Part shown: positions 7,038 through 9,857 of the stretch, one piece after another
How the letters are laid out: each line of letters starts with the position of its first letter
Position numbering within the stretch: position 1 is the stretch's first letter
Assembly (NCBI RefSeq): GCF_030406045.1
Contig: NZ_CP128988.1
Span: 2,081,438-2,145,437 of the forward strand
Direction: 5' to 3'
Source: Thiohalobacter sp. IOR34
GTDB taxonomy: Bacteria > Pseudomonadota > Gammaproteobacteria > Thiohalobacterales > Thiohalobacteraceae
Length of the DNA stretch: 64,000 nucleotides
Notes under the pieces: generated by a model
Told to the model about the DNA's origin: nothing
Seen by the model: only the letters and a program-made list of their open reading frames with translations
The model's database searches: none
Program-made: the position numbers and the translations under genes

Positions 7038-9857
7038 ATGGACGACACCGACCGCAGTCAGCAGTTGCTCGAACTCCTCGACGAACTGGTCGCCGAGCTG
7101 CATCAGGGGCATAGCCCACCTCCCGTCAGCCTCGACAGCGACCTGGAACGCGACCTTGGCATCGACAGCCTGGCGCGGGTCGAACTGCTGCTGCGGCTGC
7201 AGCAGCGCCTCGACGCCAGCCTGCCGGAGCATGAAGCCCTGCAGGCCGCCACGCCACGCGCCCTGCTGCGGTTGCTCGGCGGGGGGGCCGCCCCGCCTAC
7301 GGCCGAGGTGGCGCCACCGGCCCGGGGTCCCATCCACGCCCGCCCCGAGGCGGCCTGCTCGCTGAACGAGGTGCTCGCCTTCCATGCTGAACACCATGCC
7401 GGGCACCACTACCTGACCCTCTACGAATCCGGCGACGAGCCCCTGCACCTCAGCTACGGCGAACTCTTCGGGCGGACCCGCCAGTTCGCCGCTGCGCTGC
7501 GTGAGCGTGGCCTCGAAGCCGGCGACCGGGTAGCGCTGATGCTGCCCACCAGCCTGGCCTTCTTCGATGCCTTCTACGGTACCCTGCTGGCGGGCGGCGT
7601 GCCTGCGCCGCTCTATCCGCCGGCCAGCCGGGCGCGGATCGAGGAATTCATGCTGCGCCAGGCCGGCATCCTCGACAATGCCGGGGCCCGGCTGCTGATC
7701 ACCACCGCAGAGATCGAGCCCTTCGCCCGGCTGCTCAAGAAGCAGGTCGCGGCCCTCGACGACGTTCTCACCCCGGACCGCCTGGAGAGCGATGGCGAGG
7801 CGGCCTGGCTGCCGGGTCGCGGGGAGGACCTGGCCTTCCTGCAATACACTTCCGGCAGCACCGGCCAGCCCAAGGGCGTGATGCTGAGCCACGCCAATCT
7901 GCTGGCCAACATCCGCGCCATGGGCCAGGCTGCGGACGTCAGGGTCGACGACCTGTTCGTCAGCTGGCTGCCGCTGTATCACGACATGGGCCTGATCGGC
8001 GCCTGCCTGGGCACCCTCTATCACGGCATCCCGCTTGTACTGATGTCGCCGCTGGCCTTCATCAGCCGGCCACAGCGCTGGCTGCAGCGCCTGCACCGGC
8101 ATCGCGGCACCCTCTCGGCGGCACCCGACTTCGCCTACCAGCTCTGCGCCAGCCGTCTCCTCGACCGGGAGCTGGAGGGGCTGGACCTGTCCAGCTGGCG
8201 GCTGGCCTTCAACGGCGCCGAGCCGGTGCATGCCGAGACCCTGCGCCGCTTCAGCCGGCGCTTCGCCCCCTATGGCTTCGATCCCACCGCCATGACCCCG
8301 GTCTACGGCCTGGCCGAATGCGCCGTCGGCCTGGCCTTCCCGCCGCTGGGGCGCGGCCCGCGCATCGACCGCATCCAGCGCGAGGCCTTCATGTACGAGG
8401 GCCGGGCGCGGCCCGCCGCCGACGACGATGCAGAGGCCCTGGAGCTGGTCAGCGGCGGCCTGCCGCTGCCCGGGCACGAGATCCGCATCGTCGACGAACA
8501 GGGCCGCGAGCTGGGAGAACGCCAGCAGGGCCTGCTGCAGTTTCGAGGCCCCTCGGCCAGCGCCGGCTACTTCCGGAACCCCGAGGCGAGTGCCGCCCTG
8601 TGTGACGGCGACTGGCGCAATGCCGGCGACTACGCCTACCTGGCCGCTGGCGAGGTGTTCATCACTGGTCGGGCCAAGGATCTGATCATCCGCGCCGGCC
8701 GCAACATCTATCCCTACGAACTGGAACAGGCGGTTGGCGACCTGCCCGGCATCCGCAAGGGTGCCGTGGCCGTCTTCGCCACCCGCTCCACTGCGCCTGG
8801 TGGCGAACGGCTCGTGGTGCTGGCGGAGACCCGGGAGCGCGACCCCGGGCAGCGGCAGCGGCTGCGGGCCCGGATCGAGGCGCTGGCCCTGGAACTGATC
8901 GAGACCCGGCCCGACGACATCGTGCTGGCGCCGCCGCGCACCGTCCTCAAGACCTCCAGCGGCAAGATCCGCCGCGCCGCCTGCCGCGACCGCTACGAAC
9001 AGGGGCTGATCGGCGACCACCAGCAACACCCGCTGCACCGCCTGAGGACGCGCACCCGGCTGCTGGCCCGGGCCCTGGCCGCCAGCGGCCGCCGCGGGGG
9101 CCGCCATCTCGCACAGCGGCTCTACGCCGGCTATGCCTGGGGCCTGCTGCTGGTGATCGGCCTGGCGACCCTGCTGCTGGTGCTGCTGGCACCGGGCCTC
9201 CGGGCGGCGCAGCGCTGCACCCATCTGGCAGCGCGGCTGTTCCTCGCCCTGGCAGGCATCCGCCTGGCGATCAGCCGCGACAGCGAGCCGCCGCCGGACG
9301 AGACCCTGATCCTGGTCGCCAACCATGCCAGCTACCTCGATGCCATCGTGCTGATCGCCGCCCTCGATCGGCCATTGCACTTCGTTGCCAAGCAGGAACT
9401 GGGCAGACACAGGCCGCTGGGCTGGTTCCTGCACCGGCTGGGCACCGAGTTCGTCGCCCGCGACGAGGTTCGGGAAGCCCTGGCCGCGACCCGGCGCATG
9501 ATCGAGCGGGTGGAACGCGGCGAGGCCGTGCTCTTCTTCCCGGAGGGCACCTTCACCGCTGCCAGCGGCCTGCGCCCCTTCCGCCTCGGCGCCTTCCAGG
9601 TCGCCGCCGCCACAGGCACCGCGATCCTGCCGGTAGCCCTGGCCGGAACCCGCGCCGTGCTGCGTGGCGAGAACCGCCTGCCCCGTCCCGGCCGGGTCCG
9701 GGTCCACGTCGGCCGGCTGCTGCGCCCGCGGGGCAGCGACTGGGCGGCGGTACTCGATCTGCGCGACCGGGCCCGGGAACAGATCCTCGCCCGCTGTGGC
9801 GAACCGGACCTGGCCGGGCGGGTGGGCATCGCCCGCCCGGCCGGTCCGAATGGGTGA
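7038..9857 (+). CDS. ACP / fatty acyl-AMP ligase / lysophospholipid acyltransferase fusion
   Basis: Three activities in one 939-aa chain. Residues 1-90: an acyl carrier domain with the phosphopantetheine serine in LGIDSL (Ser44). Residues about 110-665: an adenylating enzyme of the FAAL type, with YTSGSTGQPKGVML near 270, WLPLYHDMGLIG, YGLAECAVGLAFPP and the C-terminal KTSSGKIRR. Residues about 695-925: hydrophobic segments followed by a PlsC-type acyltransferase with NHASYLD (HX4D) near 763 and FPEGT. Inferred pathway: activate a fatty acid as acyl-AMP, load it on the fused ACP, then transfer it to a lysolipid at the inner membrane. It stands alone, divergent from xerD. No strong ribosome site is visible; a TTG four codons upstream is an alternative. 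Confidence 0.88.
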   Translation: MDDTDRSQQLLELLDELVAELHQGHSPPPVSLDSDLERDLGIDSLARVELLLRLQQRLDASLPEHEALQAATPRALLRLLGGGAAPPTAEVAPPARGPIHARPEAACSLNEVLAFHAEHHAGHHYLTLYESGDEPLHLSYGELFGRTRQFAAALRERGLEAGDRVALMLPTSLAFFDAFYGTLLAGGVPAPLYPPASRARIEEFMLRQAGILDNAGARLLITTAEIEPFARLLKKQVAALDDVLTPDRLESDGEAAWLPGRGEDLAFLQYTSGSTGQPKGVMLSHANLLANIRAMGQAADVRVDDLFVSWLPLYHDMGLIGACLGTLYHGIPLVLMSPLAFISRPQRWLQRLHRHRGTLSAAPDFAYQLCASRLLDRELEGLDLSSWRLAFNGAEPVHAETLRRFSRRFAPYGFDPTAMTPVYGLAECAVGLAFPPLGRGPRIDRIQREAFMYEGRARPAADDDAEALELVSGGLPLPGHEIRIVDEQGRELGERQQGLLQFRGPSASAGYFRNPEASAALCDGDWRNAGDYAYLAAGEVFITGRAKDLIIRAGRNIYPYELEQAVGDLPGIRKGAVAVFATRSTAPGGERLVVLAETRERDPGQRQRLRARIEALALELIETRPDDIVLAPPRTVLKTSSGKIRRAACRDRYEQGLIGDHQQHPLHRLRTRTRLLARALAASGRRGGRHLAQRLYAGYAWGLLLVIGLATLLLVLLAPGLRAAQRCTHLAARLFLALAGIRLAISRDSEPPPDETLILVANHASYLDAIVLIAALDRPLHFVAKQELGRHRPLGWFLHRLGTEFVARDEVREALAATRRMIERVERGEAVLFFPEGTFTAASGLRPFRLGAFQVAAATGTAILPVALAGTRAVLRGENRLPRPGRVRVHVGRLLRPRGSDWAAVLDLRDRAREQILARCGEPDLAGRVGIARPAGPNG

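Follow-up and report, generated by a model that had tools for sequence, protein, structure and literature searches.

Fatty acyl-AMP ligases (FAALs) are familiar as suppliers of polyketide and lipopeptide synthesis. What, then, would such a ligase do when it is joined in one chain to an acyl carrier protein (ACP) and to an acyltransferase of the membrane-lipid type? The question is raised by a gene in a 64,000-nucleotide stretch of DNA from the gammaproteobacterium Thiohalobacter sp. IOR34 (contig NZ_CP128988.1, positions 2,081,438 to 2,145,437; hereafter the window), whose genome is a single contig of 2.96 Mb. At positions 7038-9857 of its plus strand, the window encodes a 939-residue protein in which an ACP is followed by a FAAL and then by a PlsC-type acyltransferase. 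We propose, with a probability of roughly 0.6, that this protein acts as a self-loading O-acyltransferase that transfers free fatty acids to a membrane lysolipid other than lysophosphatidic acid (LPA).

A widespread and conserved three-domain fusion

The gene and its carrier domain are located as follows.

7038-9857, plus strand: coding sequence of the ACP-FAAL-PlsC fusion, 939 residues (open frame, Pfam, NCBIfam, orthologs)
7113-7277, plus strand: ACP (PP-binding) domain, residues 26-80 (Pfam PF00550)
7167-7169, plus strand: Ser44 in a (D/G)SL motif, expected phosphopantetheine site (Ser in 43/43 orthologs)

All three domains score above the Pfam cut-offs within one frame (PP-binding at residues 26-80, 1.8e-9; AMP-binding at residues 128-512, 2.3e-69; acyltransferase PF01553 at residues 752-868, 4.5e-27 and 94.9 bits), which upholds the original prediction, made from the letters of this DNA, of an ACP, a FAAL and a PlsC-type acyltransferase in one chain. 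The top NCBIfam match is 'fatty acyl-AMP ligase' PRK09192 (5.2e-128, under its whole-protein cut-off). The frame is opened by an ATG and extends upstream as far as 6252; a start near 7038 is supported because the extension lies opposite a minus-strand open reading frame (ORF; 6048-6992, tyrosine-recombinase-like, named xerD-like by eye) and because 14 of 46 relative rows, own copies and duplicates counted among them, have the frame closed within 12 residues upstream of the aligned start. Since a structure model of the whole protein, built from six sequences, is of middling confidence (predicted local distance difference test, pLDDT, 67.3; predicted template modelling score, pTM, 0.43), active-site geometry was not taken from it; a second model has a pLDDT of 70.3 and falls below 50 just past the start of motif III of the transferase.

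The fusion is neither a chance event nor an assembly join, and we have confirmed that it represents a real, widespread and conserved family. Among 369 genomes drawn evenly from the class Gammaproteobacteria, which also serve for the co-occurrence counts given below, 65 are matched at E <= 1e-150 with the whole protein as query; in 63 of these a single match runs from residue 22 or earlier to residue 923 or later, the remaining two being cut (G097) or split by the aligner (G038), and two genomes (G091 and G183) hold two copies each. Full-length relatives beyond the class occur in Paraburkholderia diazotrophica and in two Nitrospirota metagenome-assembled genomes (MAGs), and the closest named relative among the fetched loci is Thiohalobacter thiocyanaticus, with 60% identity for the fusion protein. 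Within the window's own family (11 genomes), the fusion is whole in seven, in pieces in one (G010) and not found in three (G004, G005 and G008). The copy in pieces (locus L022) shows stops or frame changes and could be a draft-assembly error.

Conservation was assessed in an alignment of 43 orthologs, namely the window protein and 42 proteins that are 41-61% identical over the best segment; it omits duplicate loci (L004, L008, L010) and rows below 600 bits, such as the broken L022, and it says nothing on the start codon because starts were set by rule at the nearest upstream Met. Ser44, Lys643, Asn762, His763, Asp768, Lys785, Arg808 and Glu836 are invariant in 43/43. Pairwise domain distances correlate over these orthologs (FAAL-PlsC, r 0.90; ACP-FAAL, 0.85; ACP-PlsC, 0.76), values that were reached in 0 of 999 permutations for each of the three pairs; the three domains have therefore travelled together.

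The middle domain carries FAAL signatures

The ligase part of the protein comprises the following features.

7359-9008, plus strand: FAAL domain, residues about 108-657 (PRK09192; alignments to 7R7G, 3PBK and 3KXW; Foldseek)
7965-7988, plus strand: W310, P312 and M317 in SWLPLYHDMG, at the places of W224, P226 and M231 of E. coli FAAL (3PBK alignment, by spacing; 43/43)
8049-8069, plus strand: FAAL-specific helix, residues 338-344, at the place of T252-R258 of E. coli FAAL (gapless alignment; F341 and P345 in 43/43)
8340-8462, plus strand: FAAL-specific insertion, residues about 435-475 (3PBK alignment with single-residue gaps; length)
8964-8966, plus strand: Lys643 in SSGK, conserved C-terminal ligase lysine (43/43)

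The best structure matches by sequence for the middle part (7R7G, 3PBK and 3KXW) are all FAALs, and so are Foldseek ranks 1-29, obtained with a model of middling confidence. In the accessible text of PMC8460268, the hallmarks of a FAAL are an insertion and a helix at the coenzyme A (CoA) pocket (T252-R258 in the E. coli FAAL), bulky residues that block this pocket (W224, M231 and F279) and a second pocket lined by prolines (P226 and P107). Because the alignment to the E. coli FAAL 3PBK is gapless from W310 through F365, the equivalents can be assigned by spacing as W310, P312, M317, residues 338-344 and F365. The residues of the blocked pocket and of the helix (W310, M317, F365, F341 and P345) are present in all 43 orthologs; of the two pocket prolines, only the place of P226 was mapped, and it is held by P312 in 43/43.

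The insertion region aligns to 3PBK with single-residue gaps only, and the stretch from YG(L/M)AE to the aspartate of GD, measured in the alignment, comprises 106-110 residues in 43/43 orthologs. The original prediction had singled out this insertion for alignment and had taken its absence as decisive against a FAAL; the insertion is there in every ortholog. When counted with one pattern, the distance is 94-102 residues in 41 of the 42 orthologs measured and 61 in the other, a value which the alignment measure identifies as a pattern artefact; one more ortholog gave no value. Two other PF00501 ligases of the window's genome (L002 and L003) give 61 by the same pattern. By a count similar to the alignment measure, three of four other FAAL-type proteins give 109-110, with no value for the fourth. 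By its sequence features the middle domain is a FAAL, and both loading of the ACP and rejection of CoA are predicted.

The transferase domain lacks the arginine of motif III

The C-terminal part is laid out as follows, with T. maritima PlsC abbreviated as TmPlsC.

9105-9251, plus strand: hydrophobic helical stretch before the acyltransferase core, residues about 690-738, a PlsC-like membrane motif (hydropathy; model)
9291-9641, plus strand: PlsC-type acyltransferase domain, residues 752-868 (Pfam PF01553; 5KYM by sequence and fold)
9321-9341, plus strand: motif I NHxSYxD, residues 762-768 (N, H and D in 43/43)
9390-9392, plus strand: Lys785, at the place of TmPlsC K105 (5KYM alignment; K in 43/43)
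9543-9554, plus strand: motif III EGTF, residues 836-839, with Phe at the place of TmPlsC Arg159 (5KYM alignment)

TmPlsC 5KYM is the closest solved structure (sequence, 2.1e-18; fold, 1.2e-11). The stretch before the acyltransferase core exceeds 1.6 in a 19-residue hydropathy window in 42 of the 43 orthologs and is modelled as helices 665-717 and 721-738. The PF01553 hallmarks are kept in 43/43, namely NHx4D (H763 and D768), R808 of motif II and E836 of motif III; with N762 equally intact, the catalytic residues speak against an inactive transferase site, the second objection foreseen when the fusion was first noticed. Motif III reads EGTF in 37 orthologs, EATF in two, EGTL in two, EGAF in one and EGSF in one, so that the fourth place of EGTR is held by Arg in 0/43 and usually by Phe, as newly observed here. 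According to the part of the review PMC6688108 that is available, R159 and K105 of TmPlsC are suggested to contact the phosphate of LPA, and replacement of the motif III R by A or K strongly inhibits the mammalian LPA acyltransferase (LPAAT) alpha; the correspondence with R159 and K105 was counted along the 5KYM alignment. Given the lost arginine, the fusion protein is probably not an LPA acyltransferase, which yields the concrete prediction that the acceptor is not LPA. Of the 'lysophospholipid acyltransferase' originally proposed, the intact PlsC-type site has thus been retained, whereas a lysophospholipid acceptor is unproven and LPA is argued against.

In a survey of related genomes covering the PF01553 matches given a locus or fetched (91 rows), EGTF or EATF is found in 14/14 fusion rows, one of which (L115) is the broken copy of G010, and Arg holds the fourth place in 45 of 77 non-fusion rows, or 42 of 74 genes after removal of the duplicates (L104/L168, L118/L167 and L113/L169). 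Outside the fusions, EGTF was met in this survey in only two proteins, the stand-alone L097 and L109, whose neighbouring ORFs, viewed by eye only, gave no clue. E. coli Aas is also without the EGTR arginine (its motif III is EGRI).

A FastTree phylogeny of the same 91 rows (147 columns, midpoint root) places the fusions in one clade with both stand-alone EGTF proteins (support 0.926); this clade joins another of 13 proteins (support 0.844). OlsA models are the best match for 8/8 scanned members of the latter, yet under the curated cut-off; three of the 13 adjoin PF13444 (OlsB-type) genes by coordinates, and none has Arg at the aligned EGTR place, L125 and L135 having it one place earlier. As judged from this tree, the transferase domain is nearer to OlsA-like enzymes than to the housekeeping-type PlsC of related genomes. 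On TIGR00530 (LPA or AGP acyltransferase) the isolated domain narrowly misses the cut-off (100.8 bits versus 102.95); it scores 74.1 and 62.6 bits on OlsA models, short of the NCBIfam cut-off for OlsA (300 bits), 69.1 on PRK08633, 38.5 on PRK15018 (PlsC) and 38.2 on the E. coli Aas model NF005959 (cut-off 886), and the whole protein scores 178 and 140 bits on the Aas models NF006386 and NF005291 (cut-offs 1221 and 1349).

A proposed self-loading acyltransferase and its alternatives

The sequences show three domains with intact catalytic residues, the signatures of a FAAL, the loss of the arginine for LPA binding, and conservation; from these we infer a scheme of catalysis, an order of steps and a class of acceptor. 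Using ATP, the FAAL domain would convert a free fatty acid to acyl-AMP and, with CoA bypassed, load the acyl group onto the built-in N-terminal ACP, at the phosphopantetheine arm of Ser44; this arm is presumably attached by the single phosphopantetheinyl transferase (PPTase) found in the genome. The PlsC-type domain, which its hydrophobic helices would keep at the membrane, would take the acyl group from this acyl-ACP and join it in ester linkage to a hydroxyl group of a non-LPA membrane lysolipid. That lysolipid would be either a head-group-bearing lysophospholipid, like the acceptor of Aas, or a lyso-aminolipid free of phosphate, like that of OlsA. The 'self-contained fatty-acid-to-lipid machine' of the original prediction would thereby remain the likeliest reading, as a deduction from sequence.

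Pfam counts at E <= 0.001 place PF00550 three times in this genome: in the fusion, in an AcpP-like gene flanked by FabG-like and FabF-like genes, and in a small ACP gene that follows an FkbH-like gene (all names by eye), the latter two places lying in frames of 101 and 89 residues. PF01648 (PPTase) has one place, in an open frame of 136 residues. As the fusion is accompanied in the genome by no more than two small carriers and a single PPTase, no assembly line is evident; by PF00550, no partner of the nonribosomal peptide synthetase (NRPS) or polyketide synthase (PKS) type, with a carrier domain in another large frame, was found in the genome. PF01553 has two places, one in the fusion and one in a PlsC whose motif III is EGTR and whose neighbour is a GmhB-like gene (by eye).

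Several observations weigh against the self-loading acyltransferase as proposed. TIGR00530 is the best single NCBIfam model for its transferase domain, and K785, being kept in 43/43, leaves room for a phosphate-bearing acceptor. The two stand-alone EGTF proteins nest within the fusion clade, and the node shared with the OlsA-like clade is moderately supported in a tree rooted at its midpoint. The gene is probably dispensable, since three of the 11 genomes of the window's family show none. If the fusion were an Aas-like repair enzyme, it might be expected to replace Aas or to be linked to LplT, and it does neither: an Aas-profile match (PRK08633, E <= 1e-90) is found in 25/65 fusion genomes versus 136/304 others (p 0.41), and LplT in 7/65 versus 33/304 (p 1.0). 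An enzyme of ornithine-lipid synthesis should accompany OlsB, and the fusion does not: strong PF13444 (OlsB-like) matches, meaning the best among those listed, down to 8.4e-21 (99 genomes), occur in 17/65 fusion genomes versus 82/304 others (p 1.0), and PF13444 matches of any strength in 31/65 versus 111/304 (p 0.12). Replacement of Aas, partnership with LplT and partnership with OlsB in ornithine-lipid synthesis were rejected on these counts. The method does see a true pair, as the control Aas-LplT stands out clearly (37/161 versus 3/208, p 9e-12).

The best surviving alternative, a sub-case of the proposed scheme that we consider possible and hold only tentatively, is an Aas-like repair of lysophospholipids, in which free fatty acid would be placed onto lyso-phosphatidylethanolamine, lyso-phosphatidylglycerol or lysocardiolipin by an enzyme with its ACP built in. 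Such an enzyme would follow the logic of E. coli Aas, in which acyl-ACP made from holo-ACP goes to the transferase domain (PMC11416262, available portion); no second protein with both PF00501 and PF01553 was found in the genome, and the EGTR arginine is missing from both enzymes. However, besides the lack of anti-correlation with Aas, there is no link to LplT: no match at E <= 1e-40 was found in the window's genome, all seven LplT-bearing fusion genomes are also Aas-positive, and the fusion genomes without an Aas-profile match have LplT in 0/40. The OlsA models (74 and 63 bits) also outscore the E. coli Aas model (38 bits), though the Aas-type PRK08633 reaches 69.

Less probable, and rather doubtful, is another sub-case of that scheme, an OlsA-like O-acyltransferase acting on a phosphate-free lyso-aminolipid, possibly an exosortase-linked N-acyl amino acid. 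It agrees with the OlsA-like nature of the adjoining transferase clade and with the co-occurrence of TIGR03694 (exosort_acyl), found in 19/65 fusion genomes versus 30/304 others (p 1.6e-4) and, by family, in 16/42 versus 21/139 (p 0.002; the total of 181 families being set by the highest family label seen); both are present in one genome in 13 families. The window's genome itself has two adjacent TIGR03694 exosortase-associated N-acyltransferase genes, outside the window (G000:C1:1746536-1748148, minus strand). However, TIGR03694 is missing from 46/65 fusion genomes, no adjacency to the fusion was noticed, and OlsB itself is not associated; moreover, this test was chosen after weak PF13444 hits, as the fifth of five, with kinship handled by family collapse only. 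The link is a post-hoc lead only and may reflect shared lineage or habitat.

It is unlikely that the fusion is a second, salvage-type LPA acyltransferase that would place exogenous or recycled fatty acids onto sn-2 in phospholipid synthesis. The rank of TIGR00530 as top NCBIfam match of the isolated domain, the retention of K785 and the closeness of the TmPlsC structure would all suit such a role, but the arginine that would bind the LPA phosphate, and whose replacement inhibits LPAAT alpha, is lost in 43/43, and a separate EGTR PlsC is already encoded in the genome. Least likely of all is a PlsC part that serves mainly as a membrane anchor while the acyl-ACP feeds another, unlinked pathway, as published FAAL-ACP didomains feed PKS lines (PMC11837247, as far as its text is available), for the catalytic residues of the transferase are invariant in 43/43 and no carrier domain lies in a large frame elsewhere in the genome.

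Relation to known systems

Fusions of a few bacterial FAAL-like domains with lysophospholipid acyltransferases have been mentioned before, with PKS/NRPS-independent roles suggested (PMC8460268, eLife 2021); in the accessible text of that paper they occupy one sentence, which is silent on ACP order, on distribution and acceptor, and on motif and function, so that our family is likened to them by description only. No functional study of an ACP-FAAL-PlsC fusion was found in the openly licensed literature, and the enzyme is apparently uncharacterised.

E. coli Aas likewise unites a ligase and a PlsC-type transferase that work via acyl-ACP in one chain and has a non-EGTR motif III, but its PlsC part comes first, it has no ACP of its own and it is LplT-linked; its YGxTE-to-GD stretch is 86 residues, compared with 106-110 in the fusion orthologs. 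By analogy, the fusion would work like Aas with the carrier built in, while domain order, model scores and the missing LplT link set it apart from Aas. In the FAAL-ACP didomains of PKS/NRPS lines (hapalosin HapA, olefin synthase), a FAAL also loads a fused carrier, as described in the available text of PMC11837247; the fusion adds a PlsC-type domain, and its genome has no other large carrier-bearing frame. OlsA, the lyso-ornithine lipid O-acyltransferase, is akin to the transferase domain through the adjoining clade, whose 13 OlsA-like rows are without Arg at the EGTR place, but it is a stand-alone protein and usually lies beside OlsB (PMC11631085, in part), with which the fusion is not associated. 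Finally, AasR and AcpR are a dedicated ligase and a dedicated ACP that channel free fatty acid into a single lipid product, a sphingolipid; unlike the fusion, they are separate proteins, and the user of the acyl group is serine palmitoyltransferase (PMC9386255, from the portion accessible).

With 65 of 369 sampled genomes of the class, a FAAL is repeatedly hard-wired to a membrane-lipid-type acyltransferase. If the proposed function is true, free fatty acids would enter membrane lipids in a CoA-free way, distributed independently of Aas, and a dedicated lipid branch would be carried by one polypeptide; because all parts are in one chain, a role of a FAAL outside PKS/NRPS lines can be tested with a single expressed protein. 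It is conceivable, though we would not call it probable, that many Gammaproteobacteria, at least one Paraburkholderia and two Nitrospirota thus possess an undescribed route, independent of CoA and of the housekeeping ACP, onto a specific non-LPA lysolipid; this lysolipid may be an aminolipid so far undescribed from these organisms.

A second, permuted design with ligase, carrier and transferase in this order in one chain was also observed (L167:151-2892, minus strand; L168:208-2685, minus strand; L122:2-1951, plus strand). Its YGxTE-to-GD stretch of 69-77 residues is too short for the FAAL insertion, its PlsC motif is EGTR or EGER, and it sits in a separate PlsC clade; the ACP of L168 was seen as an LGLDSL motif, with no Pfam hit, and the ligase part of L122 is cut by the stretch taken.

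Gene neighbourhood

The neighbourhood was compared over 66 fusion loci (26 at first). The commonest nearby gene is DsbC-like and occurs in 8/66; six of these loci belong to the window's family, and L183 and L191 represent one other family each. The gene belongs to a common gene order with thioredoxin-, MobA/MobB- and XerD-like genes (by eye) and looks like inherited gene order; beyond it, the surroundings vary. No annotated lipid-related partner recurs in more than five of the 66 loci. With this top neighbour and no other large carrier frame in the genome, the earlier impression that the surroundings hold no biosynthetic partners has been confirmed.

Five further candidates were rejected as partners because their loci are too few. 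NfeD forms a cluster of five loci in 66, with one member confirmed by Pfam, and ATG22-like genes of the major facilitator superfamily (MFS) a cluster of four, with three confirmed. In the two Nitrospirota MAGs, a gene for a diacylglycerol kinase (DgkA) lies downstream of the fusion on the same strand, at distances of 29 and 102 bases (L029:10822-11193, plus strand, and L030); it is confirmed by Pfam in L029, the L030 gene being of the same cluster, and would be consistent with either lipid salvage or diacylglycerol as the product. In two loci, a second ligase gene of the AMP-binding type (PF00501 and PF23562; L066:6128-7978 and L075:129-1844, both minus strand) is found directly downstream of the fusion and on the same strand. 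In a single locus, the fusion is followed on the same strand, after 25 bases, by a cyclopropane-fatty-acid-synthase-like gene (PF02353; L187:7827-8963, plus strand).

Just past the gene, the window contains an exact inverted pair of a 21-base sequence (9871-9891, minus strand, and 10067-10087, plus strand), about 200 bases apart, and three further copies with 2-3 mismatches lie at 183, 10107 and 16454. These five matches, compared with 0.01 expected, possibly represent a small mobile or repeat element.

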